Assembly (NCBI GenBank): GCA_001515945.1
Contig: LOER01000016.1
Span: forward strand, 186,001 to 250,000
Source: Desulfitibacter sp. BRH_c19
GTDB lineage: Bacteria > Bacillota > DSM-16504 > Desulfitibacterales > Desulfitibacteraceae
Direction of reading: 5' to 3'
Length of the DNA: 64,000 nt
Shown one piece after another: positions 13,614 through 29,744 of the stretch. The position numbers and the translations under genes are program-made. Positions within the stretch are counted from its first letter, which is position 1. Each line of letters starts with the position of its first letter. The notes beneath the pieces were generated by a model. The model ran no database searches. It was not told where the DNA came from and saw nothing but the letters and a program-made list of their open reading frames with translations.

Positions 13614-15355
13614 TATCCAATCACCTCCAGTTCATGGGCGGCCGCTTCAATTCTTGTATGTACCCTATTATTACCTGCTAGTAATAACCCATGACCTATT
13701 TTAGCACCAGCTAAGAGATCAACTTCTGCCTCAGATAATTTCATTAAGTCTGTTAGAGCTTCTAAATCCCTGCTTTCCTGCCTCATTAATAGCTTCATGC
13801 TAGCATTAGTAATTACAGGCTGTCCTAACCTGGCTATTTCAGGGGCTAGAAAATCTACTATGTTTTGAGTGATGATAGTCAAACTACCATTGTACTTCCT
13901 AATTCTTTTAGAAAGGTCTCTTAGAAAACCAATGGCCTGCGGTGTCTGTGGATCTGCTAAAAGCCATGCTTCATCCACCACAAGCACGGTCCTTTTTCCT
14001 TCAGCTCTGCCTTCTCTAACTAAGTCCCAAGCATATGAAAGGATATTAAAATATTGTGCCCTTCGTACATTTTCACTTGCATCTGTTAAATCTCTAATAT
14101 CCAGCACAGTAAAATCACCTACAGCAGGAATGGTAGTCTGCCCATTCCACAAAGCTGCATCTGCACCTTCAACAGCTCCTTTAAAGAGTACTGATAACCT
14201 TTCTTGTCCTTTAGCCTGGATATGCTTATATACATCAAGAACAGTGGGGTACTCTTTTACTGTAGAGGGTTCAGTCTGCCAAATAATCCCGTAATCTTTA
14301 TAGGACGCAAGTATACAATCATCTAATACTGACCTTTCTAGATCTGAAAGCCCAGGTAAGTAAAGTTGAAATAAAGTCTTAACCCTCTGCAAATGGCTAG
14401 ATAGTGGTCCTCTAACACTATCATCTTGTTCCTCATCTTCCTCATCGGGATCTATATCAGGAACAGGTCTAATTTCTAATGGATTAATTTTACCTTTCCC
14501 ACCTGCAGCATTGATCCAGCTTCCATCAAGCTCCCTGCACATCATTTTATACTCTCGCTCGGGATCTAGTATTAATATCCTGGCACCTAGAGCATATTCC
14601 CTTAACAGAATCATCTTTGCAGCAAAAGACTTACCCCCACCAGAAGTACCCAGGATGTTCATATTTGGATTGGTAACACCAGCATCCTGGGGAGGCTTCC
14701 ATCTATCTACAAGTATCAAACCATCATCAGAATCTCTGCCTAGAACAATCCCTTTACCATGGTTTAAACTACTGCTAACAAAAGGATAGCTTGCAGCAAC
14801 AGTTTCAGCAGGCATATCCTTACCTGCCATTTCTGTAATTTCTTTTTGCATTAAACCAAAAGGTCCTACTGTTTTTAACCCATCTTCCTGTCTAAATACT
14901 GTAGTTCTTGCTCTCATCCCCTGCCCTGCACACATTGCCTCAACCTGTCTGGTCTTTTTATTTAGTTCATCTTCTGTCTGTGCAACTATCAAAATAGTTA
15001 CGGTAGTGTTATAAACTCTTTGACCTTCTTGATCTATTTTTTTTAGAAGTTCTTTCGAATCAGATAAAGATTGTTCCCACCTACTTCTGTCCAAGGCTTG
15101 GCCTCCCGTAGCAAGTCTACTATTAAACTCCTTAATGCTGTTATTTAAAGCTTTAAGCATATCAAGTGGATCAGTAGGAGAAATACTGATACTGACAACA
15201 ACTCCTGGCATGTTAGCAAGCCTAGCTAACCAAGCATCTTTTACCCTGGGAGGATACCCTACAACTACTAAAACTTTTCCAACGCAATCACCTATGACAA
15301 TATTTCTCTGATTAAACTTGATACCTGGTGGAGCTATAATATCAACTAGAGCCAT
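13613..15355 (-). CDS. virB4: VirB4-like conjugation ATPase, C-terminal catalytic part
   Basis: 580 residues: Walker A ILGTSGGGKSFAAK (about 233-246), Walker B TVLVVDEAWLLAD (about 448), and TIITQNIVDFL plus LMRQESRDLEALTDL downstream, as in VirB4/TrbE/TraC ATPases that power T4SS assembly and substrate passage at the inner face of the membrane. VirB4 proteins are commonly about 800 residues. The upstream 220-residue gene, which overlaps by one base (TAATG), supplies what looks like the missing N-terminal portion. A two-gene VirB4 is therefore likely. Confidence 0.92.
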   Translation of the reverse strand: MALVDIIAPPGIKFNQRNIVIGDCVGKVLVVVGYPPRVKDAWLARLANMPGVVVSISISPTDPLDMLKALNNSIKEFNSRLATGGQALDRSRWEQSLSDSKELLKKIDQEGQRVYNTTVTILIVAQTEDELNKKTRQVEAMCAGQGMRARTTVFRQEDGLKTVGPFGLMQKEITEMAGKDMPAETVAASYPFVSSSLNHGKGIVLGRDSDDGLILVDRWKPPQDAGVTNPNMNILGTSGGGKSFAAKMILLREYALGARILILDPEREYKMMCRELDGSWINAAGGKGKINPLEIRPVPDIDPDEEDEEQDDSVRGPLSSHLQRVKTLFQLYLPGLSDLERSVLDDCILASYKDYGIIWQTEPSTVKEYPTVLDVYKHIQAKGQERLSVLFKGAVEGADAALWNGQTTIPAVGDFTVLDIRDLTDASENVRRAQYFNILSYAWDLVREGRAEGKRTVLVVDEAWLLADPQTPQAIGFLRDLSKRIRKYNGSLTIITQNIVDFLAPEIARLGQPVITNASMKLLMRQESRDLEALTDLMKLSEAEVDLLAGAKIGHGLLLAGNNRVHTRIEAAAHELEVIG

Positions 15356-16017
15356 TATTTCACTTCCTTTCGATTAAAATATGGTGTAACGGTTTCTTTT
15401 TCTTCTGCCCTTTCAAAGGCAGCTTGAGGAGAGTGAAAAAAAGAAAACAGCATATCAAGTATCTCTTGATAGCTGCTTAAATGAGCATTTAACTCTGCTC
15501 TTGCCAACTCTCCTACAAACTCTTTAGTTTTGCTTAACAGTTCATCTTCATTGCCTTTTTCCCCTGGTATTAATACAAAAAATCTCTTTTCCATGGCTTC
15601 TGCACCAGCAGTTATCTTTCTTACATAGTTTGTATATCCCCTTAGGATAACTTTTCTTTTTCCTTCAGTTTCTTTTAACTTTACTTCCAAAGCTTTAATA
15701 TAAATATCTAAATCAATAGGTCTGGGGATAGCTTCTATCTGCATATCTCCTGGTATTGCCTGGATTGCTTCAAACAAGGCTCCAATTCTCCTTTCTTTTT
15801 CTCTGTCAGACAGAAGTGAAAATGGGCTAGGTTCTACCCTAACAACAGTAACAGGTGTAGCATCATAGTGGTATTCTATACCTTCAGAAATGTCCTGTAT
15901 TGGCAGCCATTGTTGTACTGTGTTATCTTTACTTTTTACGTTTACCTGTTTGTTTGCTAATTTTTGTTTTTTACTTGGTAGTTTTATTTTAAGTTTAGAT
16001 ATGGCTGGTAACTTCAC
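15355..16017 (-). CDS. VirB4 N-terminal-like protein
   Basis: 220 residues. A basic Lys-rich start, then a segment with VTVVRVEPSPFSLLSDREKE, RYGxL-like helices and KRFFVLIPGE, which is the type of sequence seen in the N-terminal half of VirB4/TraC ATPases. No P-loop. It sits between VirB3-like and VirB4 genes with one-base TAATG overlaps at both ends, so stoichiometric coupled translation is likely. Together with the next gene it adds up to about 800 residues, the usual VirB4 length. Assignment rests on length, position and weak sequence character. Confidence 0.6.
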   Translation of the reverse strand: MKLPAISKLKIKLPSKKQKLANKQVNVKSKDNTVQQWLPIQDISEGIEYHYDATPVTVVRVEPSPFSLLSDREKERRIGALFEAIQAIPGDMQIEAIPRPIDLDIYIKALEVKLKETEGKRKVILRGYTNYVRKITAGAEAMEKRFFVLIPGEKGNEDELLSKTKEFVGELARAELNAHLSSYQEILDMLFSFFHSPQAAFERAEEKETVTPYFNRKEVK

Positions 16018-16364
16018 TAAAAGCCCCTCCTTTTGTAATAATATACCTTGGGTCTACTACTCCATGTCCTAAAAGCTCTTAACTGTTGGTACAAACTGTT
16101 ACCGGCAGTATCTTGCTTGAACAGCATATAAGCCATAGCCGCAGGTAAAGTAAATATAAAAAGTCTTGCAAATAATTTAGGACCTATTGGTAAAGGCAAG
16201 ATAACAGGTATTAATTGCAATACTCCTCCTAACGCCATGCCAGCTGCAACAGCACCAAGCTCTATAAAACCAAAGCCAGGAAATATCTCCATTTTGGTTT
16301 TCGTTTCCCTGGGAACTAAGTATTCATTTTTAGCCATATTAGACATTCTAGACATTCCCTTCAT
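16017..16364 (-). CDS. PrgI/VirB3-like small membrane protein
   Basis: 115 residues. YLVPRETKTKMEIFPG opens the conserved part, followed by two close membrane spans (about 33-55 and 62-82) and a basic C-terminus (RPKVYYYKRRG). This is the PrgI/VirB3 layout: a short double-spanning inner-membrane protein always next to VirB4. It starts directly after the VirB6-like stop (TAA-ATG) and overlaps the following gene by one base. Confidence 0.7.
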   Translation of the reverse strand: MKGMSRMSNMAKNEYLVPRETKTKMEIFPGFGFIELGAVAAGMALGGVLQLIPVILPLPIGPKLFARLFIFTLPAAMAYMLFKQDTAGNSLYQQLRAFRTWSSRPKVYYYKRRGF

Positions 16365-17246
16365 TTATTTTCTTCCTACAGTAGAAGCTATTCTATACAA
16401 TGCAGATTGTCCCAAACTTCCTGCAGCACTACTCATTCCAGTATGATAAGCATAGTTTCTTAGTATCTTAGGACTCTTAAAACTAACCCAAAGTGCTGCA
16501 AGCCACATAAATAACTTAATCTCAAACTGTGTACCGAATCCATAGTCAGATGGAGCCAAAAGAAAAGCTATGCTCATATACAGTAGCAACATCTGTACAG
16601 CATGTGTCATGGAAATTATTATTACTTCCTTTACCCACATATCTGCCATTCCTCCTCCTGACATATGGCCAATGGCAGCATAAGGGGAAATGATAGCTGT
16701 AAGTGTTATTTCTACAGTCCTTATTAATGCCTGCATGAACACAAGAAATGTGAGTATTCCACCTCCAAGTACAATAATTGGAGATAGTAGGGTTCCAAAC
16801 AAAACACTAGTTCCAACAGTACCTACAAGACCCTCTAAACTTAAATCACTTAAACCTACACCTATTCCAACATTACCAACCCATAATGCAAACTGGTTAC
16901 CAATAATAATAGCGTTTCTAATAACCCAAGGACCCCCTGCAATGGCTATAGCAGACATTACAGTTCTTTTTAGCAAGCCCCCTGGATCAGTAGGTGCACC
17001 TTCTGAACGTAAAGAAGCCATCATCAATGCTTCCCAAGCAAACCTACAAGCTAATATAGCCCCAGCAATAGCTTGTGATCCTAAAATAAATTGGTTAATC
17101 CATGAAATGTTTAATAAATCATTCAACATGCCATATTGAGTAAAAACAGAAAGGAACCAGTCAACAACAGTAAAGATGGGTGAAATAAATCCTATCAAAA
17201 ATTCCTCAAAACCAGAATTAATCATATCACCAATTCTTTCAAGCAC
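16365..17246 (-). CDS. VirB6/TrbL-like polytopic channel protein
   Basis: 293 residues from GTG at 17246 behind AAGGGATG. At least six hydrophobic segments, Gly- and Ala-rich, with the central region GGILTFLVFMQALIRTVEITL typical of VirB6/TrbL proteins that form the inner-membrane channel. It lacks any enzyme motif. It follows the pilin-like pair and a 48-codon gene, and precedes the VirB3-like gene, the standard order in Gram-positive T4SS clusters. Confidence 0.75.
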   Translation of the reverse strand: MLERIGDMINSGFEEFLIGFISPIFTVVDWFLSVFTQYGMLNDLLNISWINQFILGSQAIAGAILACRFAWEALMMASLRSEGAPTDPGGLLKRTVMSAIAIAGGPWVIRNAIIIGNQFALWVGNVGIGVGLSDLSLEGLVGTVGTSVLFGTLLSPIIVLGGGILTFLVFMQALIRTVEITLTAIISPYAAIGHMSGGGMADMWVKEVIIISMTHAVQMLLLYMSIAFLLAPSDYGFGTQFEIKLFMWLAALWVSFKSPKILRNYAYHTGMSSAAGSLGQSALYRIASTVGRK

Positions 17247-17260
17247 TTAATCACATCCCT

Positions 17261-17407
17261 TCAAAAAGCAATAAAGTTACTAATATGGATTTCAAAAACT
17301 AACCCATCTAGTAACTTCTTGACCATTAACCATCCACTATCATTTGGCAGAGTTAGTACAATACATGCAGCACTATGCCTTGATAAGATAATATCGCCAA
17401 TTTTCAT
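17261..17407 (-). CDS. small unknown protein of the T4SS cluster (48 aa)
   Basis: ATG at 17407 has GAGGTGATGATAT in front. The 48 residues (MKIGDIILSRHSAACIVLTL start) end at 17261, leaving 14 bases to the VirB6-like start. Placement inside the operon, a good ribosome site and tight spacing argue for a translated gene. It looks soluble, with a short beta-rich pattern. No family recognised. Confidence 0.5.
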   Translation of the reverse strand: MKIGDIILSRHSAACIVLTLPNDSGWLMVKKLLDGLVFEIHISNFIAF

Positions 17408-17418
17408 ATATCATCACC

Positions 17419-17673
17419 TCAGAACATACCTAAGATAGTACTTACAATTCCACCTGCTAAAATACCAATTACACCATATTTAATGGTATTACTTAAACTC
17501 TTGCTATGTCCCAGGGCTGAATGATCATCTTGAGCAGTTGACCTCATTATGGCGTGATAAGTTGCCATAACTGCAACTACTGGAATAGCTAGAGTAGTTA
17601 ACCATGTTAGAGCTGTTTGAAAAAAGCTTATAATACTGTTTATAAAATCAGCATTTGTCCAGTTATTCTCCAT
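17419..17673 (-). CDS. VirB2/TrbC-like pilin-type membrane protein, copy 2
   Basis: 84 residues with two membrane segments separated by a short polar loop (STAQDDHSALGHSKSLSN). Apart from the first 12 residues it is almost identical to the 78-residue protein encoded just upstream (17741-17977), with the same FFQTALTWLT and GGIVSTILGMF stretches. Size, two-span layout and place in the T4SS operon fit a VirB2/TrbC-type pilin or channel subunit. The duplication is recent at protein level, while synonymous sites differ. Confidence 0.65.
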   Translation of the reverse strand: MENNWTNADFINSIISFFQTALTWLTTLAIPVVAVMATYHAIMRSTAQDDHSALGHSKSLSNTIKYGVIGILAGGIVSTILGMF

Positions 17674-17699
17674 GTTATCTAACCACCTTTTAAAAGCTA

Positions 17700-17725
17700 A
17701 GGCAGGCTATCAATATAACCTGCCT
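17700..17725 (-). terminator. hairpin between the duplicated pilin genes
   Basis: AGGCAGG-TTAT pairs with ATAG-CCTGCCT around ATTG, followed on the minus strand by TAGCTTTTAAAA. It could be an attenuator setting the ratio of the first pilin-like protein to downstream T4SS proteins. Confidence 0.5.
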
Positions 17726-17740
17726 ATTAAAAACTAATTT

Positions 17741-17977
17741 TTAAAACATGCCTAAGATTGTGCTTACAATTCCACCAGCTAGAATAGCAATTACCCCATA
17801 TTTTATGGTATTACTTAAACTCTTACTATGCCCCATGGCAGAATGATCATCTTGAGCAGTTGACCTCATAATCGCATGGTATGTAGCCATTACTGCAACT
17901 ACCGGAATAGCTAGAGCAGTTAGCCATGTTAAAGCAGTTTGAAAAAAACTGATAATCTGGGTAATAAAAGTTGGCAT
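17741..17977 (-). CDS. VirB2/TrbC-like pilin-type membrane protein, copy 1
   Basis: 78 residues, MPTFITQIISFFQTALTWLT start, two membrane spans, polar loop with DDHSAMGHSKS. Near-duplicate of the next gene (17419-17673). It is isolated by hairpins on both sides (18015-18037 upstream, 17700-17725 downstream), so it may be expressed at a different level from the rest, as usual for a major pilin. Ribosome site AGGAGGTACTTG is strong. Pilin identity is inferred from size, topology and context. Confidence 0.65.
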   Translation of the reverse strand: MPTFITQIISFFQTALTWLTALAIPVVAVMATYHAIMRSTAQDDHSAMGHSKSLSNTIKYGVIAILAGGIVSTILGMF

Positions 17978-18014
17978 ATCAAGTACCTCCTGAAATAATT
18001 TTTTTAAGCAAAAT

Positions 18015-18037
18015 AAAAAAGCCCTTATCGGCTTTTT
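18015..18037 (-). terminator. intrinsic terminator after ardC-like gene
   Basis: Minus strand AAAAAGCC-GATAA-GGGCTTTTTT, three bases after the ArdC-like stop at 18040. A perfect stem with T-tract. Confidence 0.7.
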
Positions 18038-18039
18038 GG

Positions 18040-18954
18040 TTATCTTTCTAATTCAATTTTCGTTTTTTGCTGATTTTTTGTTATTACAATCTGCTGATCC
18101 TTTTCCCGTGTTCTTGCATGTTCTAATATTATTTCTACTGTCTTTTCTACTTCATTTAACACCCCCATAATTTCTTTTACTACACCAGCACTATCATTTG
18201 ATTTTGCATAACTCTTAATATAATCAAAATTATGTTTTTCAAAGCCCTTTACGTCATACATTTGCATCAAAACTGCACTCGACATTTCAGCAACAATCTC
18301 TTGCTTTGGGTCCTGCCCTCCTTTTAATTCTACAAATGTTCCATGTGCTGCATGAGCCAGCTCATGAAAAAACGTTTTAGTATCATGTGTATATAATTCA
18401 ATTTTCCCCTTCATAAAATAAAAACTACCGTAAGTACTTTCATTTACGGCAGGTTTATACTGAACATCTAGTCCTAACTCTTTAGCAGCTTCCCATAATG
18501 GAGGTAGCTCTGCTGGCTGGTAATTAATTTCTGGTAGAGGTTTACCAGTTGTATCCTCAACATTAAAAACCGGAATGCCCCTAAAACCTTTTATAAAGGT
18601 TTTTTGTTTTTCAACTTCTGTTTCTTTTCCTGTTGTCTTATCAACCTCAATTTCTTTTTTGGTAATTTTCTTTGTAATTGGTGCAAGTATATAAAACGCT
18701 TTTGCTCCCTTTGTAACATGTCTATCTACCTCCTTCCATTGTTTAAAGCCCCTTGCATCTTCGGTGTTATTAGCAATCATTAAAAGATTGTTTCCTAAGC
18801 TCCAATTATGGCAAGGCTTACTATCACCGGCTTGCTTTTGGATCATTGTCCTGGCGACAGCTACTGGCATATGTCCTGTTTCAAACATCTTTAACAGTTT
18901 ATATGCTGCGTCATTGATGATAATATCTCGTTTATCTTCTGTAGATTTTTTCAT
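18040..18954 (-). CDS. ArdC-like antirestriction protein with zincin-type metallopeptidase domain
   Basis: 304 residues. The N-terminal domain (about 10-110: NWSLGNNLLMIAN, ARGFKQWKEVDRHVTKGAKA) matches the ArdC ssDNA-binding domain of conjugative elements. The C-terminal domain contains FFHELAHAAHGT, an HExxH zinc motif, with a further Glu in EIVAEMSSAV. ArdC proteins protect incoming single-stranded DNA from host restriction. Ribosome site is TTAGGAGGGG. It is cotranscribed behind the coupling-protein gene and a 34-codon ORF. Confidence 0.85.
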   Translation of the reverse strand: MKKSTEDKRDIIINDAAYKLLKMFETGHMPVAVARTMIQKQAGDSKPCHNWSLGNNLLMIANNTEDARGFKQWKEVDRHVTKGAKAFYILAPITKKITKKEIEVDKTTGKETEVEKQKTFIKGFRGIPVFNVEDTTGKPLPEINYQPAELPPLWEAAKELGLDVQYKPAVNESTYGSFYFMKGKIELYTHDTKTFFHELAHAAHGTFVELKGGQDPKQEIVAEMSSAVLMQMYDVKGFEKHNFDYIKSYAKSNDSAGVVKEIMGVLNEVEKTVEIILEHARTREKDQQIVITKNQQKTKIELER

Positions 18955-18971
18955 AGCCTTATTTACCCCTC

Positions 18972-19076
18972 CTAATCGTCAATATAAAATTCATCTTCTT
19001 TTACAGGTATAATCACTTCTTCTGGCACTTCATTTTCAGTCATAAGATCGCAATTTTTTAGAGTAATTTTTACCAT
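18972..19076 (-). CDS. small acidic protein between coupling protein and ArdC (34 aa)
   Basis: ATG directly follows the VirD4 stop (TAA-ATG) and AGGAGG lies 11 bases before the ATG. The 34 residues (MVKITLKNCDLMTENEVPEE start, ending EFYIDD) are strongly acidic. Its TAG is 17 bases from the ArdC-like start. A translated small partner of either neighbour is plausible. No family recognised. Confidence 0.5.
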   Translation of the reverse strand: MVKITLKNCDLMTENEVPEEVIIPVKEDEFYIDD

Positions 19077-21065
19077 TTAAAAATAACCTCCTTCCGTTTT
19101 ATTCTTTAGTTTTGGTTCTTCTATTCCAGTATCTTTCTCATCTTTAAAAACAATATTTGGTACCCATGTTGTCACATTCTTATATGTCCTGTTCTTAGCT
19201 TTCTTTGTAGCAGGTCTAAACACTTCGCTTAATCCTGGCCATGAACTCATGTCTTGAATTGGTATTTTAGCAGGGAACTGACCGGCTTGAAGCAAAAGAC
19301 AGTTTCCTATTTCCCATCTTAAAACCTCATCAGGGGTTAATAGTGCTCTTCCTGTCGAGCCTTCCGATTCGGACGGTCTGTATTTATTCTTTTGTATAGA
19401 TTTAGTTACAACGGTGTATTTACCAACCTTATTGCTAATTTCCCTTGCGGTATCATTATCTGCAGTTCTAAGATATATCCAAGTATCACAATTCCCTAAA
19501 ACTATTTCGGCAGTTTGTTTACCATAGACATGCTCTAACTGTGCTTTTGCTTGTATTGCTAGAATTATTCTGATTCCTCTTCCTGCTGCAACAGTCAACT
19601 TTTCCGCAAGATTGGGTAATTTACCTATATTCCCAAATTCATCTAACAAAAACCAAACAGGTACAGGAAGTTTACCTCCATTATCTCGGGCAACATTGGC
19701 AAGACCAGCGTATGCTTGATTAACAAATAGAGAAGCTATTTGCCTTCTGGCTCCTGCTTCATCAGGCATCTTGATAAATATAGCCATAGGTTTAATACCT
19801 GCCTCATCCGGATTAAAATCGCTTTCGCTGCACATCATAGCAATACTTGGATCTGCAAATAATCTTAGATGAGCTGACGTGCCTGTATAGATACTACTCC
19901 TTGTTCTACTTTCTGATAGTGCTGCAGTTCCATAAGCCATTCTAGCTATGTCATTTCCATCCATTGACTTAAACCAACCATCTAGCAATTCTCCTCCATC
20001 TGCCCCAAGCTGTGTAAGTATTCTATAGGCTGATGTCATGTGTCTAGCATCTTCTGGAGCGTTAATTGCTGTTGCCAAACAAAGTGAAGCAATAAGGCTT
20101 TCTTCTGCCTGCGGCCAGATAGGATCATTGCCTGTTCCGTACGCCCAGGCTAAAATATTGCCTATTTCCCAAGCCTCTCTTGAAGCTTCCTCTACATCCC
20201 CCCTTTCTAGGTTAATAAGCACCTTAGATAATGGATTATATTTATTACCTTCTTTAGGATTTAAAAGGTCCAGAAGAATTACTTCGTAACCCTTCTTTTC
20301 TAGCCAAGCCGCAGTATGTTCGTAAATCTCACCTTTTGGATCAGTAACAATCATACTTTCTTTGTTATGTCCAATACTCCAAATAGAAGGCATAATAACA
20401 CGCCTGGACTTTCCACTCCTAGTAGCACCAATAATTAGAGTATGAGGGTTACCTGCATCTGGATTAGTAACCAACGCATTTTTCCCTTTTGAGCTGACTA
20501 CAATACCTGCCTTGTCAGGCTCGCTACATTTTGTTTGATTTAGGGTAGATCTATATTCACTAGTTTTTCTCCATCTACTACTACCATGTGTATGATCTTT
20601 ACTGGCCCTAATAGATTTTTCAAAGGGCCAACCTGTACGCCAGAAAATAAAAGCTAATGCAAGCAATGCACCAGCTAAAGGTATTTGTGATAACCAAAAT
20701 TGAGGTGGCCTATCTTTCCACAGTTTAATAGTCATTTCAAACCAGATATTTTCACCTGTAACTGGGTTATCGCTGTTTAAATAAGAAAAAACCTGCTCCC
20801 AAGTCATTTCTGGCTGGAGAACAGGTAAAATTGTTTTTGGTATATATAATATTGGTACACTTCCTATAAAACTAGCAATGAAAAATAGTGGCACTAACAA
20901 CAGCACTATTATCCTTGGAATTGTTAATATTCTTTTTTCAAACAGCGGTCCCAAAATCTTGCCTATAATAAAAAAAACCTTTTTCCAGAACAGAAAAGGC
21001 AGCAAAACAAATCCTACTATTAATTTTAGTGGCATATCTTTTCTTAGCTCCTTTCTATCTATCAA
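19077..21065 (-). CDS. virD4: VirD4/TraG-type type IV coupling protein
   Basis: 662 residues. Three or so N-terminal membrane spans (about 12-150), then a RecA-like motor with Walker A LIIGATRSGKSRRVIMPS (about 212-229) and Walker B WFLLDEFGNIGKLPN (about 468), plus IRIILAIQAKAQLEHVYG downstream. It is a hexameric DNA pump that brings the relaxase-bound strand to the T4SS. It lies right after the TubZ-like gene (46 bases), in the same direction, so partition-type and transfer genes appear to share an operon. Confidence 0.94.
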   Translation of the reverse strand: MIDRKELRKDMPLKLIVGFVLLPFLFWKKVFFIIGKILGPLFEKRILTIPRIIVLLLVPLFFIASFIGSVPILYIPKTILPVLQPEMTWEQVFSYLNSDNPVTGENIWFEMTIKLWKDRPPQFWLSQIPLAGALLALAFIFWRTGWPFEKSIRASKDHTHGSSRWRKTSEYRSTLNQTKCSEPDKAGIVVSSKGKNALVTNPDAGNPHTLIIGATRSGKSRRVIMPSIWSIGHNKESMIVTDPKGEIYEHTAAWLEKKGYEVILLDLLNPKEGNKYNPLSKVLINLERGDVEEASREAWEIGNILAWAYGTGNDPIWPQAEESLIASLCLATAINAPEDARHMTSAYRILTQLGADGGELLDGWFKSMDGNDIARMAYGTAALSESRTRSSIYTGTSAHLRLFADPSIAMMCSESDFNPDEAGIKPMAIFIKMPDEAGARRQIASLFVNQAYAGLANVARDNGGKLPVPVWFLLDEFGNIGKLPNLAEKLTVAAGRGIRIILAIQAKAQLEHVYGKQTAEIVLGNCDTWIYLRTADNDTAREISNKVGKYTVVTKSIQKNKYRPSESEGSTGRALLTPDEVLRWEIGNCLLLQAGQFPAKIPIQDMSSWPGLSEVFRPATKKAKNRTYKNVTTWVPNIVFKDEKDTGIEEPKLKNKTEGGYF

Positions 21066-21111
21066 TCTTTATTAATCATTAGATAAATATGAATACGCCT
21101 GTTAAAGGTGA

Positions 21112-22449
21112 CTATTCTAACCAAGCAGGTATATTTTTAAGATTTAACCCTGGATTTTTAGCTGTTTTTTCATCTTCAAAATCTAAGTCAGTAGCACCAC
21201 CTTTAAATGAATTATTTTCTTCTTGGTCAAAAGGATTATCTATATCCAAGGTTTTTGGTTTTAGTTTTTGAGACAAATTAACTTCACCAATATCCAAATA
21301 TTTGATCCTAGTCTCTGTATTATTAGAAGTCCTTACATATTCTACTATTTCTTCAATCCTGTTTGGTAAACCCATGCCTGATATTACACTAAACACATAC
21401 ACTTTATCTGTTTCATTTTGGTCTATATATGTACCCCAGAATGTATCAGCATGAGGTAGTAATTTATTAATACTATCTTCTAAGGCTTCCATTGCAAGTA
21501 TATCAAGCACTTGATCTGACTTGTTTGCAGGAGAGATGACACTGAAACCAATAGATTTAGCCTCAGCTTTGTAGTTATATCCACCAGCCACAACACCGTT
21601 ATCAATACTCTCTAATATTTTCGCTATAAGAGCATTATTGTCTTTGAACTCACTTAGTGTTAAATCAGCTCTAGCAAAAGTAATACAACCACCCACATTT
21701 AATACACGTAATAACTCCTGTCCATCAAAATGCTTATTACCATATGGTTTAAAAGAGGTAATAAGGTTTAATTGATGTATTAAACTAGCTACAGTTAGAT
21801 TACTATCAGAAGTCCAATCAATACCAGGTCCAATTTCACCTTTTTCTCTTTTAGCTTTATATTCATTATAGAGTAATTCGTTGTCAATAATAATGATAGG
21901 TAATTCACTAACAATGTCATTTAGTTTTGCTAAAACAGCTAACGCATTTTCATTTTCAACTCTTTTATCTCTCTTTCGAGGAATACTAATTATTAGCCCA
22001 AAATTAACACCAAAATATTCTTGTATTTCACTTGCCCATTTCATAATTGATAAAATACTTCCCGTGCCAGTACCACCGCCAAGACCCGCTATAATAAATA
22101 CCATATCCTGATCACTAGCAATATGCTTTAATCTTGATTTTACTTCAGCTTCATTTTCAACCAATGCTTTATAACCGATCCTTGGATCACGTCCTGCCCC
22201 TCTTTCATAACCCTTCAAAGCAAGTTTGTTTTTACAATTTTCAATGCTATCTAAATCCTGAACATTTGTATTTATTGCAAGTGTAGGATAATAAGGTCTG
22301 TCCTCACTATCTTTAAGCTGTGCAATAGTATCTACTACTCTACTCCCCATTAGCCCCATACCAACAAAAGAAAATTTACCACTTATTCGAGTATTTTTTC
22401 TTCCATGATATTTAATTCTGCTATTTAGATATCCTTTAACATAAGACAT
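21112..22449 (-). CDS. TubZ/FtsZ-like tubulin-family GTPase
   Basis: 445 residues. G-box regions: FVGMGLMGSR near 28-37, and the tubulin signature AGLGGGTGTGSILS near 140; TLAINTNVQDL fits the T3 loop and ADLTLSEF a changed T7 loop. A C-terminal acidic tail ends in NIPAWLE. Overlap with the upstream winged-helix gene (TAATG) makes a tubRZ-like pair, so the likely job is plasmid segregation by treadmilling filaments. The house FtsZ sits in the dcw cluster and has a different tail, so this is not cell-division FtsZ. Which tubulin subfamily it belongs to needs a tree. Confidence 0.8.
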   Translation of the reverse strand: MSYVKGYLNSRIKYHGRKNTRISGKFSFVGMGLMGSRVVDTIAQLKDSEDRPYYPTLAINTNVQDLDSIENCKNKLALKGYERGAGRDPRIGYKALVENEAEVKSRLKHIASDQDMVFIIAGLGGGTGTGSILSIMKWASEIQEYFGVNFGLIISIPRKRDKRVENENALAVLAKLNDIVSELPIIIIDNELLYNEYKAKREKGEIGPGIDWTSDSNLTVASLIHQLNLITSFKPYGNKHFDGQELLRVLNVGGCITFARADLTLSEFKDNNALIAKILESIDNGVVAGGYNYKAEAKSIGFSVISPANKSDQVLDILAMEALEDSINKLLPHADTFWGTYIDQNETDKVYVFSVISGMGLPNRIEEIVEYVRTSNNTETRIKYLDIGEVNLSQKLKPKTLDIDNPFDQEENNSFKGGATDLDFEDEKTAKNPGLNLKNIPAWLE

Positions 22450-22742
22450 TATTTAGACCCCCTATATATTATTTTAGCAACCTCACGCCCATTGTCAGTT
22501 AAGCTATACTCGTGTTTAGTACCGTAACTAACATGATCCAACAACAGGCCACCTTCAAGAAAACTTACTGCATTATCTACTACCTTTGGAGAATATGGAC
22601 TGTTCTCATAAATTTTCTTTTTAATTATTGGTCCATTGTTTTCAGCTTCTAAATTTATAATTGTTTGTAGCACACCTAGAATTTGTCTGTTCGTAGAAAT
22701 TTTACTGGCTAATAGATTAAGTACTTCTTTACTATGGTTCAT
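22449..22742 (-). CDS. winged-helix protein, TubR-like partition adaptor
   Basis: 97 residues. Helix-turn-helix core GPIIKKKIYENSPYSPKVVD followed by a wing (LDHVSYGTKHEYSLTDNG). Size, fold type and one-base overlap with the TubZ-like gene match TubR, the small dimeric DNA-binding protein that coats the centromere tubC and tethers TubZ. Repeats just upstream of its start (22781-22836) are suitable binding sites. Ribosome site TGGGAGGTG. It could also be just an operon regulator, since TubR proteins do both. Confidence 0.7.
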   Translation of the reverse strand: MNHSKEVLNLLASKISTNRQILGVLQTIINLEAENNGPIIKKKIYENSPYSPKVVDNAVSFLEGGLLLDHVSYGTKHEYSLTDNGREVAKIIYRGSK

Positions 22743-22780
22743 TGAATTTTAACACCTCCCAATTTAACCTGAAAACTTAT

Positions 22781-22836
22781 ATTATCTTACATCATGGTAT
22801 GTAAGGTAATATAAGGTAAGATAATGTAATGTAATA
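22781..22836. promoter_or_regulatory. tubC-like centromere / operator repeats
   Basis: Within 56 bases upstream of the TubR-like start are a perfect 10-bp inverted repeat, ATTATCTTAC (22781-22790) and GTAAGATAAT (22816-22825), and a run of 6-7 base near-repeats of the form TAAGG/TAATG (GTAAGG, TAATATAAGG, TAAGATAATG, TAATGTAATA). Short iterated sites before tubRZ form the centromere in known type III partition systems. A second direct repeat, TCAACAGAAG, occurs at 22874 and 22909. Confidence 0.55.
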
Positions 22837-22909
22837 TGCTACAATTTAAAAGATTACATATATAAATACCATGTCAACAGAAGCATATACTGCACCTTAC
22901 GCTTATACA

Positions 22910-23149
22910 TCAACAGAAGTAGTCATTCACTCTACCCCCTAATACTTTCACCAAATTACAGCTTTTTATATGAGCTTCATCTGGAGATCTACATTCAACA
23001 AATCCACTTGGCGTATTTTTGTCGTTAATATATACTAGCTTTCCAATTACCTTTACTCTGGGGAACCATATGGTTGTGAATATACCATCTCTTTTTAAAG
23101 TTTTCTCTTCAGCTACTGCAGCTTCAATTCTACTTGCCTTATTTCCCAT
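22910..23149 (-). CDS. unknown 79-aa protein after relaxase gene
   Basis: ATG at 23149 lies behind GGGAGG with a 9-base gap; a longer frame from 23203 would overlap the relaxase terminator and is less likely. The protein has a Glu/Lys-rich helix then a beta-rich part (FTTIWFPRVKVIGKLVYIND, FVECRSPDEAH). No family recognised. Position between relaxase and tubR suggests a transfer or copy-control accessory. Confidence 0.55.
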   Translation of the reverse strand: MGNKASRIEAAVAEEKTLKRDGIFTTIWFPRVKVIGKLVYINDKNTPSGFVECRSPDEAHIKSCNLVKVLGGRVNDYFC

Positions 23150-23172
23150 ATTTTTTAACCTCCCATCAAAAT

Positions 23173-23194
23173 AAAAAAAACGCCTTTTAGCGTT
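23173..23194 (-). terminator. terminator overlapping the relaxase stop
   Basis: Minus strand AACGC-TAAAAG-GCGTT followed by TTTTTT (23180-23173). It begins within the relaxase stop codon region, so readthrough would be needed for the downstream tub/tra genes unless they have their own promoter in 22790-22900. Confidence 0.65.
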
Positions 23195-24428
23195 ACATCT
23201 CATCTTGTTTATATGCTTCTTCTTCTGTCATTCCCATTTCAAGCTTCTTCTTAATATTTTCCTTTCTTGCAACATTCCTAACTTCTTGTAGTTTTGCTAG
23301 CTCTGCCTGTGCTTCTACTTTAAGTCTTTCTCTGTCTAATGCTTTAAATATACCCCTATAAGCACTTCTAGAAATAGTTTGTCCTGTGTCCTTATGAATT
23401 GATCTGCCAGTTTTTTGCTGCTGTTTATTGATTGTACCTGCCTCTCTTAGTATTTGATTTGCAATTCTATCTCTTATGTCGTTATAAGCTTTACCCCAGG
23501 CCTCGTCAGATTTGTCTTTTGATAAAGTATATACTCTGGTTAACTCCCTGGTAGCCTTTTCATATTGTTCTATGGTTTCTTTGATCTGCGGTTTTTTTAG
23601 CATCATATCAGCAATTGCTCTAGCTTCTTGTTTAACATCTTCTGGCATAAAAGCAAGTGCTACCCTGCCTTTACTTGGCATTTTACTTGCTAATGAACCA
23701 AGTTTGATCGATAGTTCATTTAAATCCTCTTTGCTAAACTTTGGAGAAAGCTTTTCACCAATTGGATCAGCTGCTTGCATTTCTAATTCCGCTACTTTTT
23801 CCATATATTTAAGATCAGCAATTGCTTCTTTAGTAGCCTCTATCATGCTATTTCTAGCTAGAGTTTTTTCTATGTTTAACTCTGTTCTATACTGTCCAAA
23901 GATTTCATGTGCCACACCTCGTCTAAAAGCTTTGAGCTCAATATTTGATAACTGCCCTCTCCTGTTTGGGGCTCCACCAGAAGGATAAGCTAGTACATGG
24001 ACATGTGGATGGCCTTGTTCAGGATGATGTGCTGCAACCCAATTGATTTGTTCGTACTGCAAACCTATTGCTTTTGTAAAGTGTTCCATGTTTCTCCTGG
24101 TTAAATCCTCCCATGAGTGCCTTCCTAAATAACCTAATTTCCTAGCATCTTCCTCTTTTAGGCTAATTACTAATCTCCATGATAATGGACTTATTTTTGC
24201 CTCTAAATCTCTAATGGCCTGATCCATTATAGGAGGATTAGCTACATCTGGTCCAAATAACCCAGTACTTTTTGGCCGATTTCCTGCATACTGAATATGT
24301 GCAGCATCAGAGGATAATTTTATTTTTTCTACACCTGGTCGATTAGCAATATATTTTATATGTCCTTTGTCCTTTGGATTGTTTAAGTTAAATTTCACCT
24401 TTACGAATATTGGTGCTTCATGCTTCAT
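23193..24428 (-). CDS. HUH relaxase (MOBP-like)
   Basis: 411 residues. The HUH metal motif is HHPEQGHPHVHVLAY (residues about 137-151) and an upstream SWRLVISLKEEDARKLGY block carries the family beta strand. The first catalytic Tyr candidates lie at Y71 and Y117-119, not resolved by eye. The C-terminal 200 residues are charged helices. It nicks oriT and pilots the strand to the recipient. The nic-like sequence found at 25403-25410 is of IncP (MOBP) type, consistent with this class. Gene order RHH protein, 100-aa protein, relaxase runs away from oriT. Confidence 0.85.
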   Translation of the reverse strand: MKHEAPIFVKVKFNLNNPKDKGHIKYIANRPGVEKIKLSSDAAHIQYAGNRPKSTGLFGPDVANPPIMDQAIRDLEAKISPLSWRLVISLKEEDARKLGYLGRHSWEDLTRRNMEHFTKAIGLQYEQINWVAAHHPEQGHPHVHVLAYPSGGAPNRRGQLSNIELKAFRRGVAHEIFGQYRTELNIEKTLARNSMIEATKEAIADLKYMEKVAELEMQAADPIGEKLSPKFSKEDLNELSIKLGSLASKMPSKGRVALAFMPEDVKQEARAIADMMLKKPQIKETIEQYEKATRELTRVYTLSKDKSDEAWGKAYNDIRDRIANQILREAGTINKQQQKTGRSIHKDTGQTISRSAYRGIFKALDRERLKVEAQAELAKLQEVRNVARKENIKKKLEMGMTEEEAYKQDEM

Positions 24429-24516
24429 AACCTCACCTGCCTTATATATTTATGAAGTCTAACCTAACATACAGTTTCAATTACGTCATTTAGTCTAATG
24501 AAATGCGACTATTCGC

Positions 24517-24819
24517 TTATATAGATACTATATACAAAAGACTTATTTCGAGCCCTTTTCTTTCAAGCCAATTAGTAGTACACCAACGAAACTTTATTTG
24601 GAAATCCTCCGCATTATATTTTTCTTTAAGTTCTTTCAGTTCCTTATCAGTTAAATAATCCTTAAAAAAATATTTTTTTTGTCCATTTAACAAACCACTA
24701 TATCTAAGACCTTCTAATTTATGGTATCTGTTAGGAAACTTCATACAATGTCTTTTAATCTTCTCTAATCTCCTTAATACCGAATTGTAATATTTAACTT
24801 TTACATTATTATCTGACAT
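24517..24819 (-). CDS. unknown 100-aa basic protein near oriT
   Basis: ATG at 24819 with AAAGGAGAATTAAT upstream is preferred over the frame opening at 24843. Rich in Lys/Arg and aromatic residues (RYHKLEGLRYSGLLNGQKKY, WCTTNWLERKG), with a long central helix. Located between the RHH accessory and relaxase genes. DNA binding at oriT is a guess from charge and place. No family recognised. Confidence 0.5.
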   Translation of the reverse strand: MSDNNVKVKYYNSVLRRLEKIKRHCMKFPNRYHKLEGLRYSGLLNGQKKYFFKDYLTDKELKELKEKYNAEDFQIKFRWCTTNWLERKGLEISLLYIVSI

Positions 24820-24868
24820 ATTAATTCTCCTTTCATGTCGCACAAAAATTAATTTTTAAACCTTCTTA

Positions 24869-25261
24869 TTAGTCCTTTTCAGTCGTTTCTTCCAGCATTT
24901 TTCCTCTCTTTAAATTTGCCTTTGATTTGGCTACCGCTTGGTTCCAAGCATCTATTGTATCTACATCTTGATTAGCTACCATTTTTAAGACAGCTCTATT
25001 AAGCCAAGCTGAAGTTCCTGCAGCAATACCAGCGTGAACTGTTAGACCAGCTAGTCTGTCTATATATGGCTGCAGAACCCGTCGGAAAGCATCTTCGATT
25101 TCTGGAATACTATCTTTTGCATTTTCTGTTTTGAAGAAGTTTTCTATAATATCTCTTGTTAGTTCACTAGCTGTAGTATCTTGCTTTTCAGCCTCTTTTT
25201 TGACCTTTATAAAGGTCTCTCTTGTAAGTCTAACTTTTACTATTTCACTCAACCTTTGCAT
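24869..25261 (-). CDS. ribbon-helix-helix relaxosome accessory protein
   Basis: 130 residues. An N-terminal ribbon-helix-helix (EIVKVRLTRETFIKVKKEAE, then TASELTRDIIENFF) is followed by a helical C-terminal domain (residues 60-130). This is the layout of MobC/TraJ/NikA-like proteins that bind beside nic and recruit the relaxase. It is the first gene left of oriT; inverted repeats at 25303-25340 and TGTAA-N5-TTACA at 25280-25294 in front of it are probable binding sites, which would also make it self-regulating. Confidence 0.75.
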   Translation of the reverse strand: MQRLSEIVKVRLTRETFIKVKKEAEKQDTTASELTRDIIENFFKTENAKDSIPEIEDAFRRVLQPYIDRLAGLTVHAGIAAGTSAWLNRAVLKMVANQDVDTIDAWNQAVAKSKANLKRGKMLEETTEKD

Positions 25262-25302
25262 ATTTTAACCTCCTTTCATTGTAAAATAATTACATTTAAA
25301 GA

Positions 25303-25340
25303 GACCACAAACAGACCACACCGTGGTACAAGTTGTGGTC
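25303..25340. repeat. inverted repeat beside oriT
   Basis: GACCACAA (25303-25310) and TTGTGGTC (25333-25340) form a perfect 8-bp inverted repeat with a further CCAC-N4-GTGG element between them. Probable accessory-protein site. Confidence 0.55.
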
Positions 25341-25357
25341 CCTTATTTTTGTTCTCC

Positions 25358-25410
25358 CACCTGGCTTTGCCAGGTGTGTGTGGCCCGAGGCGTGGCCTCG
25401 CTTATCCTGC
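25358..25410 (+). other. oriT: origin of transfer (oriT) with IncP-type nic
   Basis: Two hairpins, CACCTGGC-TTT-GCCAGGTG (25358-25376) and CGAGGC-GTG-GCCTCG (25386-25400), are followed after two bases by TATCCTG/C (25403-25410). That equals the IncP/MOBP nic consensus YATCCTG/Y, at the expected short distance from an inverted repeat. Relaxase, RHH protein and VirD4 genes lie to the left. With the nick between 25409 and 25410, the + strand to the right would lead into the recipient. This polarity is inferred by analogy to RK2. Confidence 0.8.
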
Positions 25411-25555
25411 ATTAAAGAACTATGGTTTTTGCTTCTCTATTAGGCTGTGAGATGTATCCATAATTTTGGCATTTCGCAAGCAAGATTTACCCTGGCGAAT
25501 TTTACCTAACAATATAACGACCTCCATTCATTTTTGGTTTAACTTCCTGACATAC

Positions 25556-25700
25556 AAAAAAGCAGCTCCTGGGCCTGCGAAAGATATTCGCTGCAAAATG
25601 GACCAGGTGCTGCTCTTTTAACCTAGCGTTACTTTACCGACCGACACTAAATACTGACACCCAAGTTATGGGCGATAAGGTATAAGCGGTTGAGCTAGAC
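25556..25700 (-). repeat. structured repeat element, copy 1
   Basis: First of six copies. On the minus strand: TCTAGC...GCTAGG outer stem, inner stem with CTTA(T/C)CG opposite CGGTAAAG, then after 5-8 bases a long terminator-like hairpin (AGCAGC/GCTGCT ends, 25561-25615) and a T-run. It differs from the others at one stem base (TATCG), which keeps a U-G pair on the minus strand. It lies 146 bases right of nic. Homology continues on both sides: to copy 4 beyond 25700 and to copy 5 before 25556. The rest of 25411-26073 shows no gene I trust. Confidence 0.7.
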
Positions 25701-26073
25701 ATTCAAAATGACCTCGAAAGAATCCGTTAAAAAGCAAGCATGATATCATCTGTACTAGAACATCTACAAGCTGTTGTGCTGTAGGGCAGAAAACTTCTCC
25801 TTTTTTAGAGAGGATTTTGATGCACATCTTATAGACACTTTGCCACAAAGAATTATAATCCTCTTTAGAGAGATTTCGATTACCATGACCGCAAATAGCA
25901 TCAAAAAGTATCCGTATTCCGACGAATAGCTTATATAAGATAAAAAAAAGTCTTGATAAAAAAGGCTTTTATTGTTATTGCTTAAGTACTTACATATAAA
26001 ATTTGCTACTATATTAACCCACACAATAGCACTAGTAGCACACTCCTATGGTAACCATTCAGTAAAGTATAGC

Positions 26074-27138
26074 TCAATTTGCTTCAGCTTTTTCAGTTTC
26101 CTTGTGACGTTGTTCAAGCTCAACAAAAACTTTTCCAAAACACTTAGCCATAAGAGGGGGCACAGCATTCCCAATTTGTTTTGCTTTTGATATCATTGAA
26201 CCACAGAAACTATAAGTGCGGGGAAATGTTTGTAAACAAGCAGCTTCTCTAACACTTATTGCACGATCTTCAACCGGATGTCCAAACCTGCCGTTAGAGT
26301 AACTTAGACACTTTGTAGTAATTGCACTTGCAGTTTTACTATATGACAACCTACCATATACATCACTATGCCCACTATGATTTTTATGACAATCAAGCCA
26401 TAATTCTTTAGGCCAATCCTGCCTGCTCCCGCCCTCAGTAGTTGCTCTTATACGCTTTAGATTCATTTCGGATAATGAGGCTGCACAATGATCAGGATCA
26501 TTGCGATCAACTTCACCCGCCCGTAATGTTGACAAGTTCATAATCCAATCTCCTGTAGTAGAATAATCAGGGTTACTTGTCCCATCTCCATGTGTGAATG
26601 GAGGTAATTCTATATTATAGCTTTTACTTGCCATAACAATAAGTCTTTTTCTTCTTTGTGGTACGCCATACCTTGATGCCTCTACAATACTAATAAGTGG
26701 TTGAGTATATTTTAATTTACTTAATAAGTCACAAAAGTCTGCCAAAGGGCTCATTTCTATTGAAAAGTTCTGTATACCAGGCACATTCTCCACAAATATG
26801 TAATCCGGTAAATAATATTCTATAAAACGACCAAATTCACTTAATAAATTTATACGTTCATCATTGCTGTTTTTATATTTATTTTGTTTTGAAAAAGGCT
26901 GACAAGGAGCACACCCACAAAACAAAGTCGCCATACTATTATCATAATACGGCTCAATATCTTGTACTTTAATTTTTCGTATATCTTCTTTAATAAAACC
27001 TGCTTCGGGGAAGTTTAGCATAAATGTTTCAGCAGCATACAAATTATTATCTAATCCTAGGGCTATCTGCATGCCTGATTTTTTAAAACCATAACTAGCT
27101 CCACCACAGCCCGAGAAAAAATCGTAGACTTTAATCAA
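26074..27138 (-). CDS. C5-cytosine DNA methyltransferase
   Basis: 354 residues from TTG at 27138 (GGGGGAG four bases before), which gives MIKVYDFFSGCGGASYGFKK; an earlier in-frame TTG at 27153 sits inside the ribosome site. All main motifs are present: I (DFFSGCGG), IV with catalytic Cys (CAPCQPFSK), VI (ENVPG), VIII (QRRKRLIV) and X (QIGNAVPP). The target-recognition region is about 190-290. It is downstream of and probably cotranscribed with an AAA/TOPRIM gene; 15-20 bases separate them. Role: host-type modification to mask the element, or half of a restriction system. Confidence 0.92.
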   Translation of the reverse strand: MIKVYDFFSGCGGASYGFKKSGMQIALGLDNNLYAAETFMLNFPEAGFIKEDIRKIKVQDIEPYYDNSMATLFCGCAPCQPFSKQNKYKNSNDERINLLSEFGRFIEYYLPDYIFVENVPGIQNFSIEMSPLADFCDLLSKLKYTQPLISIVEASRYGVPQRRKRLIVMASKSYNIELPPFTHGDGTSNPDYSTTGDWIMNLSTLRAGEVDRNDPDHCAASLSEMNLKRIRATTEGGSRQDWPKELWLDCHKNHSGHSDVYGRLSYSKTASAITTKCLSYSNGRFGHPVEDRAISVREAACLQTFPRTYSFCGSMISKAKQIGNAVPPLMAKCFGKVFVELEQRHKETEKAEAN

Positions 27139-27155
27139 AATTCTCCCCCCCAATA

Positions 27156-29123
27156 TTAAACATTTCTATTATTAAAGTGAATATCTATTATATCATTTAT
27201 TAATTTAAACACTTCACATTGATCTTGAAATTTTGCAATAATCTGCCTTTGAATTGTTAATATCTCTGTTGAACTCACTTTAGTTTTTGCGAGCTCTTTT
27301 TCTGTTTTTTTCTTAAAATACTCCTTCCAGTCAACAGATTCTATATTATCTATGTCCTTAAAATAATGCTTCCTATCTTCATCACTAATACTTTTATATA
27401 GTAGTTTCTCCGGCTGCTTGCCAGGAAAAAAATAAACATACTGTGTCCAAAACTTTAAAAAATCTCGAAGTTGTTTAATCTTTTTAGTTCCATCACTTCC
27501 AGTCAATGGATTCCCGTCTAAATACAAATGTATTTCACAACCTACCAGTTCTTTTACAATATCTGACAATATTTCATTATCTGCTTCTGGAATTTTTGCC
27601 TCATCAACCTTCCCATTAACCATATAATTAGACAATTTTTTCCTGTATTCTTGATTAATAGGTTCTCTATTCGGCCAATGTTTATCACCATCAAAAATAA
27701 AAATCGTATTTATATCTGACGTGGCTACTGCATCACTAACGGAGTACTTTATTATGCTATCAGCTCCACCAGGAATATATATGACTTCAACAAAATTTTT
27801 CAAATTACTTTTTAACTTTTCAATATAAACATCTACAAAAGCTTTAGTCAAATTATCTTCAACATAAATCTTTATTTTATTAGCATCCGTATTTCCAATG
27901 ACATTAAACGCTTCTTCTGGATACGCACGCGGCCTTACTCTGATTTTAGCCCCTTTAATGTCATCTGATTCCAAATACATAATTTTAATGGCCTCGGGTG
28001 GCAGGTTTCTAATCATAGTCGGGGAATGTGTTGATATAATAATCTGATGTTTATGTTTCTTAATTTGCTCCAATAAAAAAGCTTGTAACTTTTGTTGTGC
28101 TTTTGGATGTAAAGATGTTTCTGGCTCGTCCAATAAAATCAATGATTTCTCTGAGGCATTCATAATTGAATGTACTAAAACCACTACAGCTGTTTCTCCA
28201 CTTCCTGCAAAAGCTTCGGAATATTGTAAACCCTTTTTATTAAGAATAACACTCGGAGCAGTAAGATTACCATAAAAAGAATGCTCAACTAACCTAATTT
28301 CTTTGTATTCAGCCCCTAATATACTACTTACCACTTCACAAGCTTTTTTTGACAATAAAACATTCTTCTTTATTTTTTCTTTCTTGAAATACTTGTAACT
28401 TTTCGAATTATCATTAATTACCCTCCGTAAAAGTTTTGCTTTATGCCGTATATAATCCTGTTTTGTTTTAAGAGTTTCTGTTTTATTAAACATGCCATGC
28501 CAAAAAAATTTATCAAAAGCACCTATCCCAGATTTAAAATCTAAATATAAAACATCTTTTTTAATAGCCCTCCAACGTGTCTTGGTTCTGTCTTCCATAT
28601 TAGTAGATTTATTAATTTTAGGTAATTTCTTCATTCCATAGTTTACAATAGGACGTGAAGGTTCCCAATAATCCGGTTTATCTTTTTTATTTATTCTTGT
28701 CTTTATAACTTCAACTATATCCTCAGGATTTTTAGACCAATAACCATAAATAAAACAATTTGGATAACTCTTTTCACGAATTACATCAACGTCAGTTGAA
28801 AACCAAAAAATACCAGTATTATTTCCTCCCGGACATCCGTATAAAGCTTGTAGTACAGAACTTTTACTACACCCATTAGCTCCTACTAATGCAGTAAAAG
28901 GAAACTCAAAATCTATTCTTTCCCCTTCAGCTAATTGTTTATAATAAGGGAATCGTATATATCGGATAAAAGGTTCAAATTCATGAGATCCCAATTTCAT
29001 AATTCTATAAATACTATTAATTGTTTTCAATATAATTTCCCCCAAAATTAGTCTAAGAGCTATTTCGACATAATTCTGAGTTTTTCCTGCTATGGAATTA
29101 TAAGGATACAATCTTTGATTCAT
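27156..29123 (-). CDS. OLD-like ATPase with TOPRIM-type C-terminus
   Basis: 655 residues by the ATG at 29123, which overlaps the stop of the small gene upstream (ATGA). An alternative TTG at 29030 with GGGGGAAATTATA in front would remove a weakly conserved N-terminus. Walker A FTALVGANGCSKSSVLQ, signature-like FAGSGETAVVVLVHS, Walker B SLILLDEPETSLHP and H-loop IISTHSPTMIR define an ABC-type ATPase. A C-terminal region with KIYVEDN and NTIFIFDGDKH suggests a TOPRIM nuclease as in OLD proteins. Paired with a cytosine methyltransferase it is likely a defence or restriction effector. Confidence 0.8.
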   Translation of the reverse strand: MNQRLYPYNSIAGKTQNYVEIALRLILGEIILKTINSIYRIMKLGSHEFEPFIRYIRFPYYKQLAEGERIDFEFPFTALVGANGCSKSSVLQALYGCPGGNNTGIFWFSTDVDVIREKSYPNCFIYGYWSKNPEDIVEVIKTRINKKDKPDYWEPSRPIVNYGMKKLPKINKSTNMEDRTKTRWRAIKKDVLYLDFKSGIGAFDKFFWHGMFNKTETLKTKQDYIRHKAKLLRRVINDNSKSYKYFKKEKIKKNVLLSKKACEVVSSILGAEYKEIRLVEHSFYGNLTAPSVILNKKGLQYSEAFAGSGETAVVVLVHSIMNASEKSLILLDEPETSLHPKAQQKLQAFLLEQIKKHKHQIIISTHSPTMIRNLPPEAIKIMYLESDDIKGAKIRVRPRAYPEEAFNVIGNTDANKIKIYVEDNLTKAFVDVYIEKLKSNLKNFVEVIYIPGGADSIIKYSVSDAVATSDINTIFIFDGDKHWPNREPINQEYRKKLSNYMVNGKVDEAKIPEADNEILSDIVKELVGCEIHLYLDGNPLTGSDGTKKIKQLRDFLKFWTQYVYFFPGKQPEKLLYKSISDEDRKHYFKDIDNIESVDWKEYFKKKTEKELAKTKVSSTEILTIQRQIIAKFQDQCEVFKLINDIIDIHFNNRNV

Positions 29124-29344: not shown

Positions 29345-29744
29345 ACAAAAAATCCTTTCTTTATTATTATGTTTTAAGCAGACAGTAGGTATCTATAATG
29401 CATGATAGTATATACTATGTGTATTAAGATATTGATATTCAATATTAATATTGCTCAGATTTGCTTTTTTCCCAAAATCACTCAGCCCTCTTTTTACGGT
29501 AAAATAAATAACCCTACCCAGGCTGAAGATTGTTGTCATCCAGAAATTCCCCGTAAATAAGCTCAGCTTTTCTATTGAAAAGCTGGATGCTATATCTTCA
29601 ATTTTAAAACTACCTCCTTATTTTGGTTTATTCTACCATAGAATTGATAATAATATTGCTTTTTATTACGCTTTTATACTCCTTCTATTGTTTTTACACA
29701 AAAAATAGCCTTATAAGGGCATCCTTATATATAATTTTTCCCGT

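Follow-up and report, generated by a model that had tools for sequence, protein, structure and literature searches.

The window, a stretch of 64,000 nucleotides of Desulfitibacter sp. BRH_c19 DNA, carries two minus-strand genes that encode a tubulin-like GTPase of 445 aa (tubZ, 21112..22449) and a predicted winged-helix DNA-binding protein of 97 aa (tubR, 22449..22742). The tubR stop and the tubZ start overlap by one base (TAATG), and the 168 bases preceding tubR hold an array of short repeats, a candidate tubC (22776..22837). The pair lies among conjugation genes of an ICE integrated in the chromosome.

The GTPase contains the GTP-binding signature loop GGGTGTGS (residues 124-131; 22057..22080, minus strand), set within GLGGGTGTGS, and G124-G130 are invariant or nearly so in TubZ alignments. 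It matches the Pfam model PF22453 (TubZ-like_C; 1.8e-17, 64.1 bits, cut-off 26) and likewise scores above the cut-off of the PF00091 Tubulin model; on the FtsZ equivalog model TIGR00065 (NCBIfam) it reaches 74.8 bits, below the cut-off of 295.2. Among solved structures, Bacillus cereus TubZ 4ei7 is the nearest in sequence (5.8e-47, residues 21-373); it bears the PDB title ‘Plasmid replication protein RepX’; RepX is the old name of plasmid TubZ. An AF2 model, computed from the window protein and 18 relatives, has a pTM of 0.79 and a pLDDT of about 90 across the core, with a tail that is disordered from about residue 381; Foldseek ranks 4ei7 first (TM 0.76/0.87) and pBtoxis TubZ 2xka next. TubZ and FtsZ separate at 100/100 support in a tree whose FtsZ set comprised the host's own protein and those of genomes G002, G113, G154 and G052. 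The window TubZ pairs with that of G113 (100/99, starred), and a placement of this pair as the first branch inside TubZ is not rejected (AU p 0.113). The FtsZ model score, the Foldseek ranking and the tree rule out an FtsZ or CetZ identity, and sequence and predicted fold together identify the protein as TubZ. A search by exact peptide patterns in genome and viral contigs returned no close TubZ relatives; the viral contigs held four distant ones. TubZ-like_C matches occur in 5 of 398 sampled genomes of the phylum, so such genes are rare.

For the small protein, a profile was made that left out the window and G113 sequences and drew on ten further products of genes adjacent to tubZ; among 807 ORFs, its best match is the window protein (1.3e-11) and its second the G113 protein (3e-9), with the next one at 0.005. 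In the joint TubR profile a solved TubR ranks first. AF2 predicts a winged helix (pLDDT 95) whose best Foldseek matches are the TubR structures 3m8e/3m9a (TM 0.73-0.80). Because the winged-helix fold is common, the sequence profile is the stronger evidence for TubR; profile and model agree in identifying the ORF as such.

Candidate tubC consists of seven TTAY pentamers at 5-bp spacing (22800-22834) and an inverted arm of 17 nt (22776-22792). On the minus strand, starting from 22834, the units read TTACA TTACA TTATC TTACC TTATA TTACC TTACA, in exact 5-base register. The arm adjoins the array on the tubR side and pairs with 22799-22815 at 16 of 17 positions. Period-5 autocorrelation over the best 60 bp is 36, compared with a maximum of 32 in 5,000 dinucleotide shuffles and 29 at the runner-up place in the window, and no second TTAY run of at least five units occurs in the scanned ~100 kb, which covers the element and flank. 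This array, which exceeds chance, is a candidate for the centromere that TubR would bind. A pattern-matched promoter within the repeats (22808-22835) was set aside, promoter-like matches being no more frequent than in shuffles. Elsewhere, the repeats take other forms: G113 and G154 have 13-bp iterons immediately upstream of tubR (5.9 and 15.4 copies, respectively), whereas the units in the window are of 5 bp, and a centromere sequence common to the ICEs is rejected, as neither unit nor sequence is shared between their arrays. Not every tubR has tandem repeats upstream, about half of the loci showing none; a repeat score of at least 60 is seen there in 6 of 25 loci, against 3% of random 500-bp stretches. 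An array that recurs before tubR with a differing sequence is what would be expected if centromeres co-evolve with their own TubR.

The earlier note on this DNA had read the locus as tubC-tubR-tubZ, with a 445-residue protein bearing the tubulin signature, a 97-residue gene ahead of it in one-base overlap, and iterated repeats ahead of that gene. The coordinates and frames of both genes are correct, the overlap is confirmed, and the repeats proved real and beyond chance in the shuffles and the ~100-kb scan. The reading as a whole is supported, TubZ and TubR by sequence and fold and the upstream array as putative tubC. The chromosomally integrated ICE, its counterpart in G113 and the FtsZ-like peptide at the TubZ C-terminus are additions to that reading. 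Two outcomes had been named as counting against it: the GTPase does not group with cell-division FtsZ by HMM, fold or tree, and the small protein is predicted to have the winged helix, with TubR as its closest solved relatives.

The surrounding genes, all on the minus strand, form a conjugation module. Upstream lie a relaxase-accessory protein of NikA/MobC type (24869..25261; a weak match, 0.048, whose homologue adjoins the relaxase in G113), a MobP3 relaxase (23193..24428; NF041499, 1.3e-61, over cut-off) and a small ORF that matches no family (22910..23203, likely start ATG 23149). Downstream follow the CD1115-type coupling ATPase virD4 (19077..21065, likely start ATG 21035; NF045973, 6.8e-105, over cut-off), an ArdC-N anti-restriction protein (18040..18954; PF08401, over cut-off), a TrbL/VirB6-like gene with two near-identical small membrane proteins (16365..17977; PF19597, homologues in G113), a VirB4 ATPase in two overlapping ORFs (13613..16017; 15355-16017 and 13613-15355; PF19044) and an M23 peptidase of the transfer system (12627..13613; PF01551). 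The small membrane proteins (17419-17673 and 17741-17977) stand in tandem in the VirB2-pilin position and have a single-copy counterpart in G113. VirB4 is broken at the same place in G113 (C1:924591-925226, 925219-927033) and is one ORF in Alicyclobacillus plasmids.

The gap between tubZ and virD4 is 46 bases, the figure in the earlier note, if virD4 starts at the TTG at 21065, but 76 bases for the likelier ATG at 21035, preceded by AGGAG. The claim that tubRZ sits inside a conjugation operon has to be qualified: the pair lies between the relaxase gene and virD4 on the same strand, but a terminator-like hairpin stands 3' of the relaxase gene (23179..23194, minus strand; one found, 0.8 expected in shuffles). 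Given this hairpin, tubRZ probably starts a transcript of its own, which, across the short gap, may read on into virD4 and so lead to co-expression onwards.

The window spans bases 186001-250000 of contig C16 (409,613 bases), on which the host ftsA-ftsZ also lie. The left end of the element and its integrase lie ~17-18.5 kb before the window, within which no integrase is found by Pfam. This large serine integrase (C16:167415-169097, 560 residues; PF00239+PF07508+PF13408, i.e., resolvase, recombinase and zinc-ribbon) adjoins a comM without its first codons, and an N-terminal comM fragment marks the right end (59439..59533, minus strand). Genome G002, of the same genus, supplies the empty site, a whole comM between the same neighbours. 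The split gene and its intact counterpart define an element of about 77.9 kb, from C16:167521 to C16:245439, with a crossover uncertain by about 12 bases; positions 1..59439 of the window belong to this ~78-kb ICE. A free plasmid is ruled out by the chromosomal genes that flank both sides in the 409,613-bp contig and by the split comM. With a site-specific recombinase at its end, a defined insertion site, a MobP3 relaxase, a CD1115-type VirD4, a VirB4 in two ORFs and TrbL, the element has the gene content and boundaries of an ICE, and the tubRZ locus is by these sequence features part of an ICE integrated in comM. A truncated N-terminal domain of a second serine recombinase (C16:169895-170275, ~16 kb before the window) adjoins the intact integrase.

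The element carries candidate replication genes for a CHC2 primase-type zinc finger protein and an HTH_36 protein (38220..39846, minus strand; PF01807, PF13730), the latter with a homologue in G113. A T2SS/T4SS-type ATPase and a SAF/CpaB-like pilus gene (46201..49017, minus strand; PF00437, PF08666), annotated as the same pair in L028/L029, fall in a set at 42525-59004 that also includes an SLH protein and a PKD-type protein of 2503 residues. Genes like these are found with tubRZ in G113 and the Alicyclobacillus plasmids as well, and the set suggests an ICE-encoded pilus or adhesin. Possible defence cargo comprises a weak ApeA match (10548-12329, 1.2e-8), a C5 DNA methylase beside an AAA ATPase with HEC-04/PtuA-like matches (26074-29123) and an 823-residue STAND-like NTPase that has no PADLOC match (34700-37171). 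A DUF6765 protein is present as an N- and a C-terminal piece (598-876, 5924-6349) separated by 5 kb, in which a UvrD-like helicase and other proteins are encoded. Two EAL-domain (c-di-GMP) proteins are encoded in the ICE (7206-7925, 40684-41427), and another (L016 1836-2585) adjoins the T4SS/tubRZ genes of G154.

A homologous ICE of ~50 kb, bounded on one side by a tyrosine integrase, is present in G113, a one-contig chromosome from another family. The two elements have in common TubZ (43% identity end to end), TubR, relaxase, VirD4, TrbL, the split VirB4 and several uncharacterised genes, and the order in G113 is tubZ-tubR-x-accessory-relaxase-x-x-virD4-pilin-trbL-virB4, so that tubR is downstream of tubZ, unlike in the window. 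These are the two intact ICE TubZs among the matches listed; G324 was rejected as a third, its tubZ being broken and the element decayed. The Alicyclobacillus plasmids NZ_CP104068 and NZ_CP071183 likewise have tubR-tubZ beside CD1115-type VirD4, in the order VirD4-TrbL-x-VirB4-x-tubR-tubZ, together with SAF and T2SS-type ATPase genes, but they are free plasmids in which tubRZ lies downstream of the T4SS genes. On a Paenibacillus agilis contig, a relaxase homologue adjoins tubRZ. Together, these loci indicate that the association of tubRZ with conjugation genes is repeated, with differing gene orders. A tandem pair of tubZ genes was seen in G052 (L015 7580-9181 and 9512-10951), where no T4SS gene was recognised in the 20 kb read. 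Our search of the open-licence literature found no description of a TubZ on an ICE.

The disordered C-terminal tail of the window TubZ (...LNLKNIPAWLE) ends in a motif that resembles the FtsZ C-terminal peptide: IPAWL, residues 440-444, encoded at 21118..21132 (minus strand). The tail of the G113 protein is ...VKEIPAWLKRYPDEPVI, so IPAWL stands at the end of both intact ICE TubZs in tails that have otherwise diverged; a five-residue word is shared by chance in 38 of 20,000 tail shuffles. In both ICE hosts, the FtsZ C-terminus is DLDIPAFLRRK. Among 931 ORFs (duplicates included), the pattern IP.[FW][LI] occurs in the last 25 residues of only FtsZ-type proteins, the ICE TubZs and one unrelated ORF, and an IPAWL-type end is absent from 29 other TubZ tails (26 and three later); Alicyclobacillus TubZ tails have NPF/NPLLRKR-type endings instead. 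As in FtsZ, an IPA-aromatic-L motif ends a disordered tail, but in the window it is on TubZ, Trp replaces Phe, and the basic residues that come after IPAFL in FtsZ are missing. The likeness spans five residues, too short to trace the codons to FtsZ DNA, and its docking role is putative. The FtsZ peptide is the docking site of several division proteins (FtsA, SepF, ZipA and others) and needs a conserved proline to bind SepF (PMC3418248), and partner proteins are known to dock to the tail of TubZ (PMC5322520). In the ICE TubZ, the tail may thus dock to a host division protein. A tentative extension, which we hold to be possible rather than probable, is that IPAWL acts as a mimic of the FtsZ peptide through which TubZ filaments would attach to FtsA, SepF or a similar division protein of the host and would thereby link segregation (or transfer) with the division site or the cell cycle. 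IPAWL may equally be a TubR-docking motif that came to resemble FtsZ by convergence. We know of no described TubZ that links a partition cytoskeleton to the divisome.

In our view the locus is likely to be a type III (TubZ-TubR-tubC) partition system on an integrated ICE, which keeps the excised or newly transferred circle. Like Bacillus plasmid TubZRC (Bc-TubZ/RepX 4ei7, pBtoxis TubZ 2xka, TubR 3m8e, pBM400 TubR 4asn), it has members of both the TubZ and TubR families, adjacent tubR-tubZ genes, repeats upstream of tubR and a disordered TubZ C-terminal tail; it differs in its location on an integrated ICE beside MobP3/VirD4, its 5-bp TTAY repeats and its IPAWL tail. In the integrated state, tubRZ would be dispensable. 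Excision or entry into a recipient would yield a circle that may replicate; TubR would coat the TTAY repeats to form a segrosome, the complex to which filaments dock, and would repress its own promoter, while TubZ would form dynamic GTP filaments that pull the TubR-DNA complex, so that each daughter would keep a copy of the ICE until reintegration. The TubZ tail (NPF ... IPAWL) would serve as the docking segment, and its IPAWL end may additionally tie the filament to host FtsA or SepF. By analogy, tubRZ is most likely the tubulin-type counterpart of srpMRC of R391, a partition system of actin type by which an ICE is stabilised (PMC4489591). The SXT/R391 system is likewise ICE-borne and three-part, with keeping the excised circle as its proposed role, but srpM is actin-like (type II), in place of a tubulin-like GTPase with a winged-helix TubR (PMC4489591).

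Of the two functions proposed in the earlier note, segregation is better supported than transfer-coupled positioning. TubRZ could serve transfer if its filaments delivered ICE DNA with bound relaxase to a cell pole or the VirD4/T4SS channel, a role that would keep tubRZ beside the relaxase and virD4 genes. The pair does abut relaxase or T4SS genes in the window, G113, G154, Alicyclobacillus and P. agilis, and in the window shares a strand with virD4 46-76 bases away. Yet any backbone module is expected to co-locate with conjugation genes; some plasmid tubRZ, e.g., that of Pontibacillus, lie apart from T4SS genes in the sequence read, and in Planococcus, Lysinibacillus, Niallia and Paenibacillus T4SS-like genes are nearby but the nearest are divergent. 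We regard a transfer role as unlikely. The free Alicyclobacillus plasmids, set against a chromosomal ICE, and the decayed relative in G324 would also suit a functionless relic of an integrated plasmid. Against decay, both ORFs, the GTP loop, the invariant Asp242, the integrase, the relaxase and the T4SS genes are intact, and tail motifs are kept by two TubZs at 43% identity; relics appear improbable.

The IPAWL tail admits a further reading, that it is a decoy for FtsA, SepF or MinC which would pause division while the element excises and transfers, segregation then being a secondary role. The match to host FtsZ IPAFL in both ICE hosts is what such a decoy would exploit, but a full TubR and repeat array are present, as partition predicts, and no other feature of an inhibitor is seen, which makes this very improbable. 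There is even less to commend TubZ as a factor whose main role is replication of the excised circle: the name RepX and the deposition of the closest solved relative, 4ei7, as ‘Plasmid replication protein RepX’ point that way, whereas the ICE bears separate replication-type genes (CHC2 and HTH_36) and TubZ-TubR-tubC constitutes a partition system (PMC5322520).

ICEs were long thought not to need segregation machinery because they are carried in the chromosome, with one actin-type exception published (R391). A tubulin-type system on ICEs would further blur the line between ICEs and plasmids and extend TubZ beyond plasmids and phages, and the FtsZ-like tail offers a clean, cheap test of whether the cytoskeleton of a mobile element plugs into the division machine of its host.
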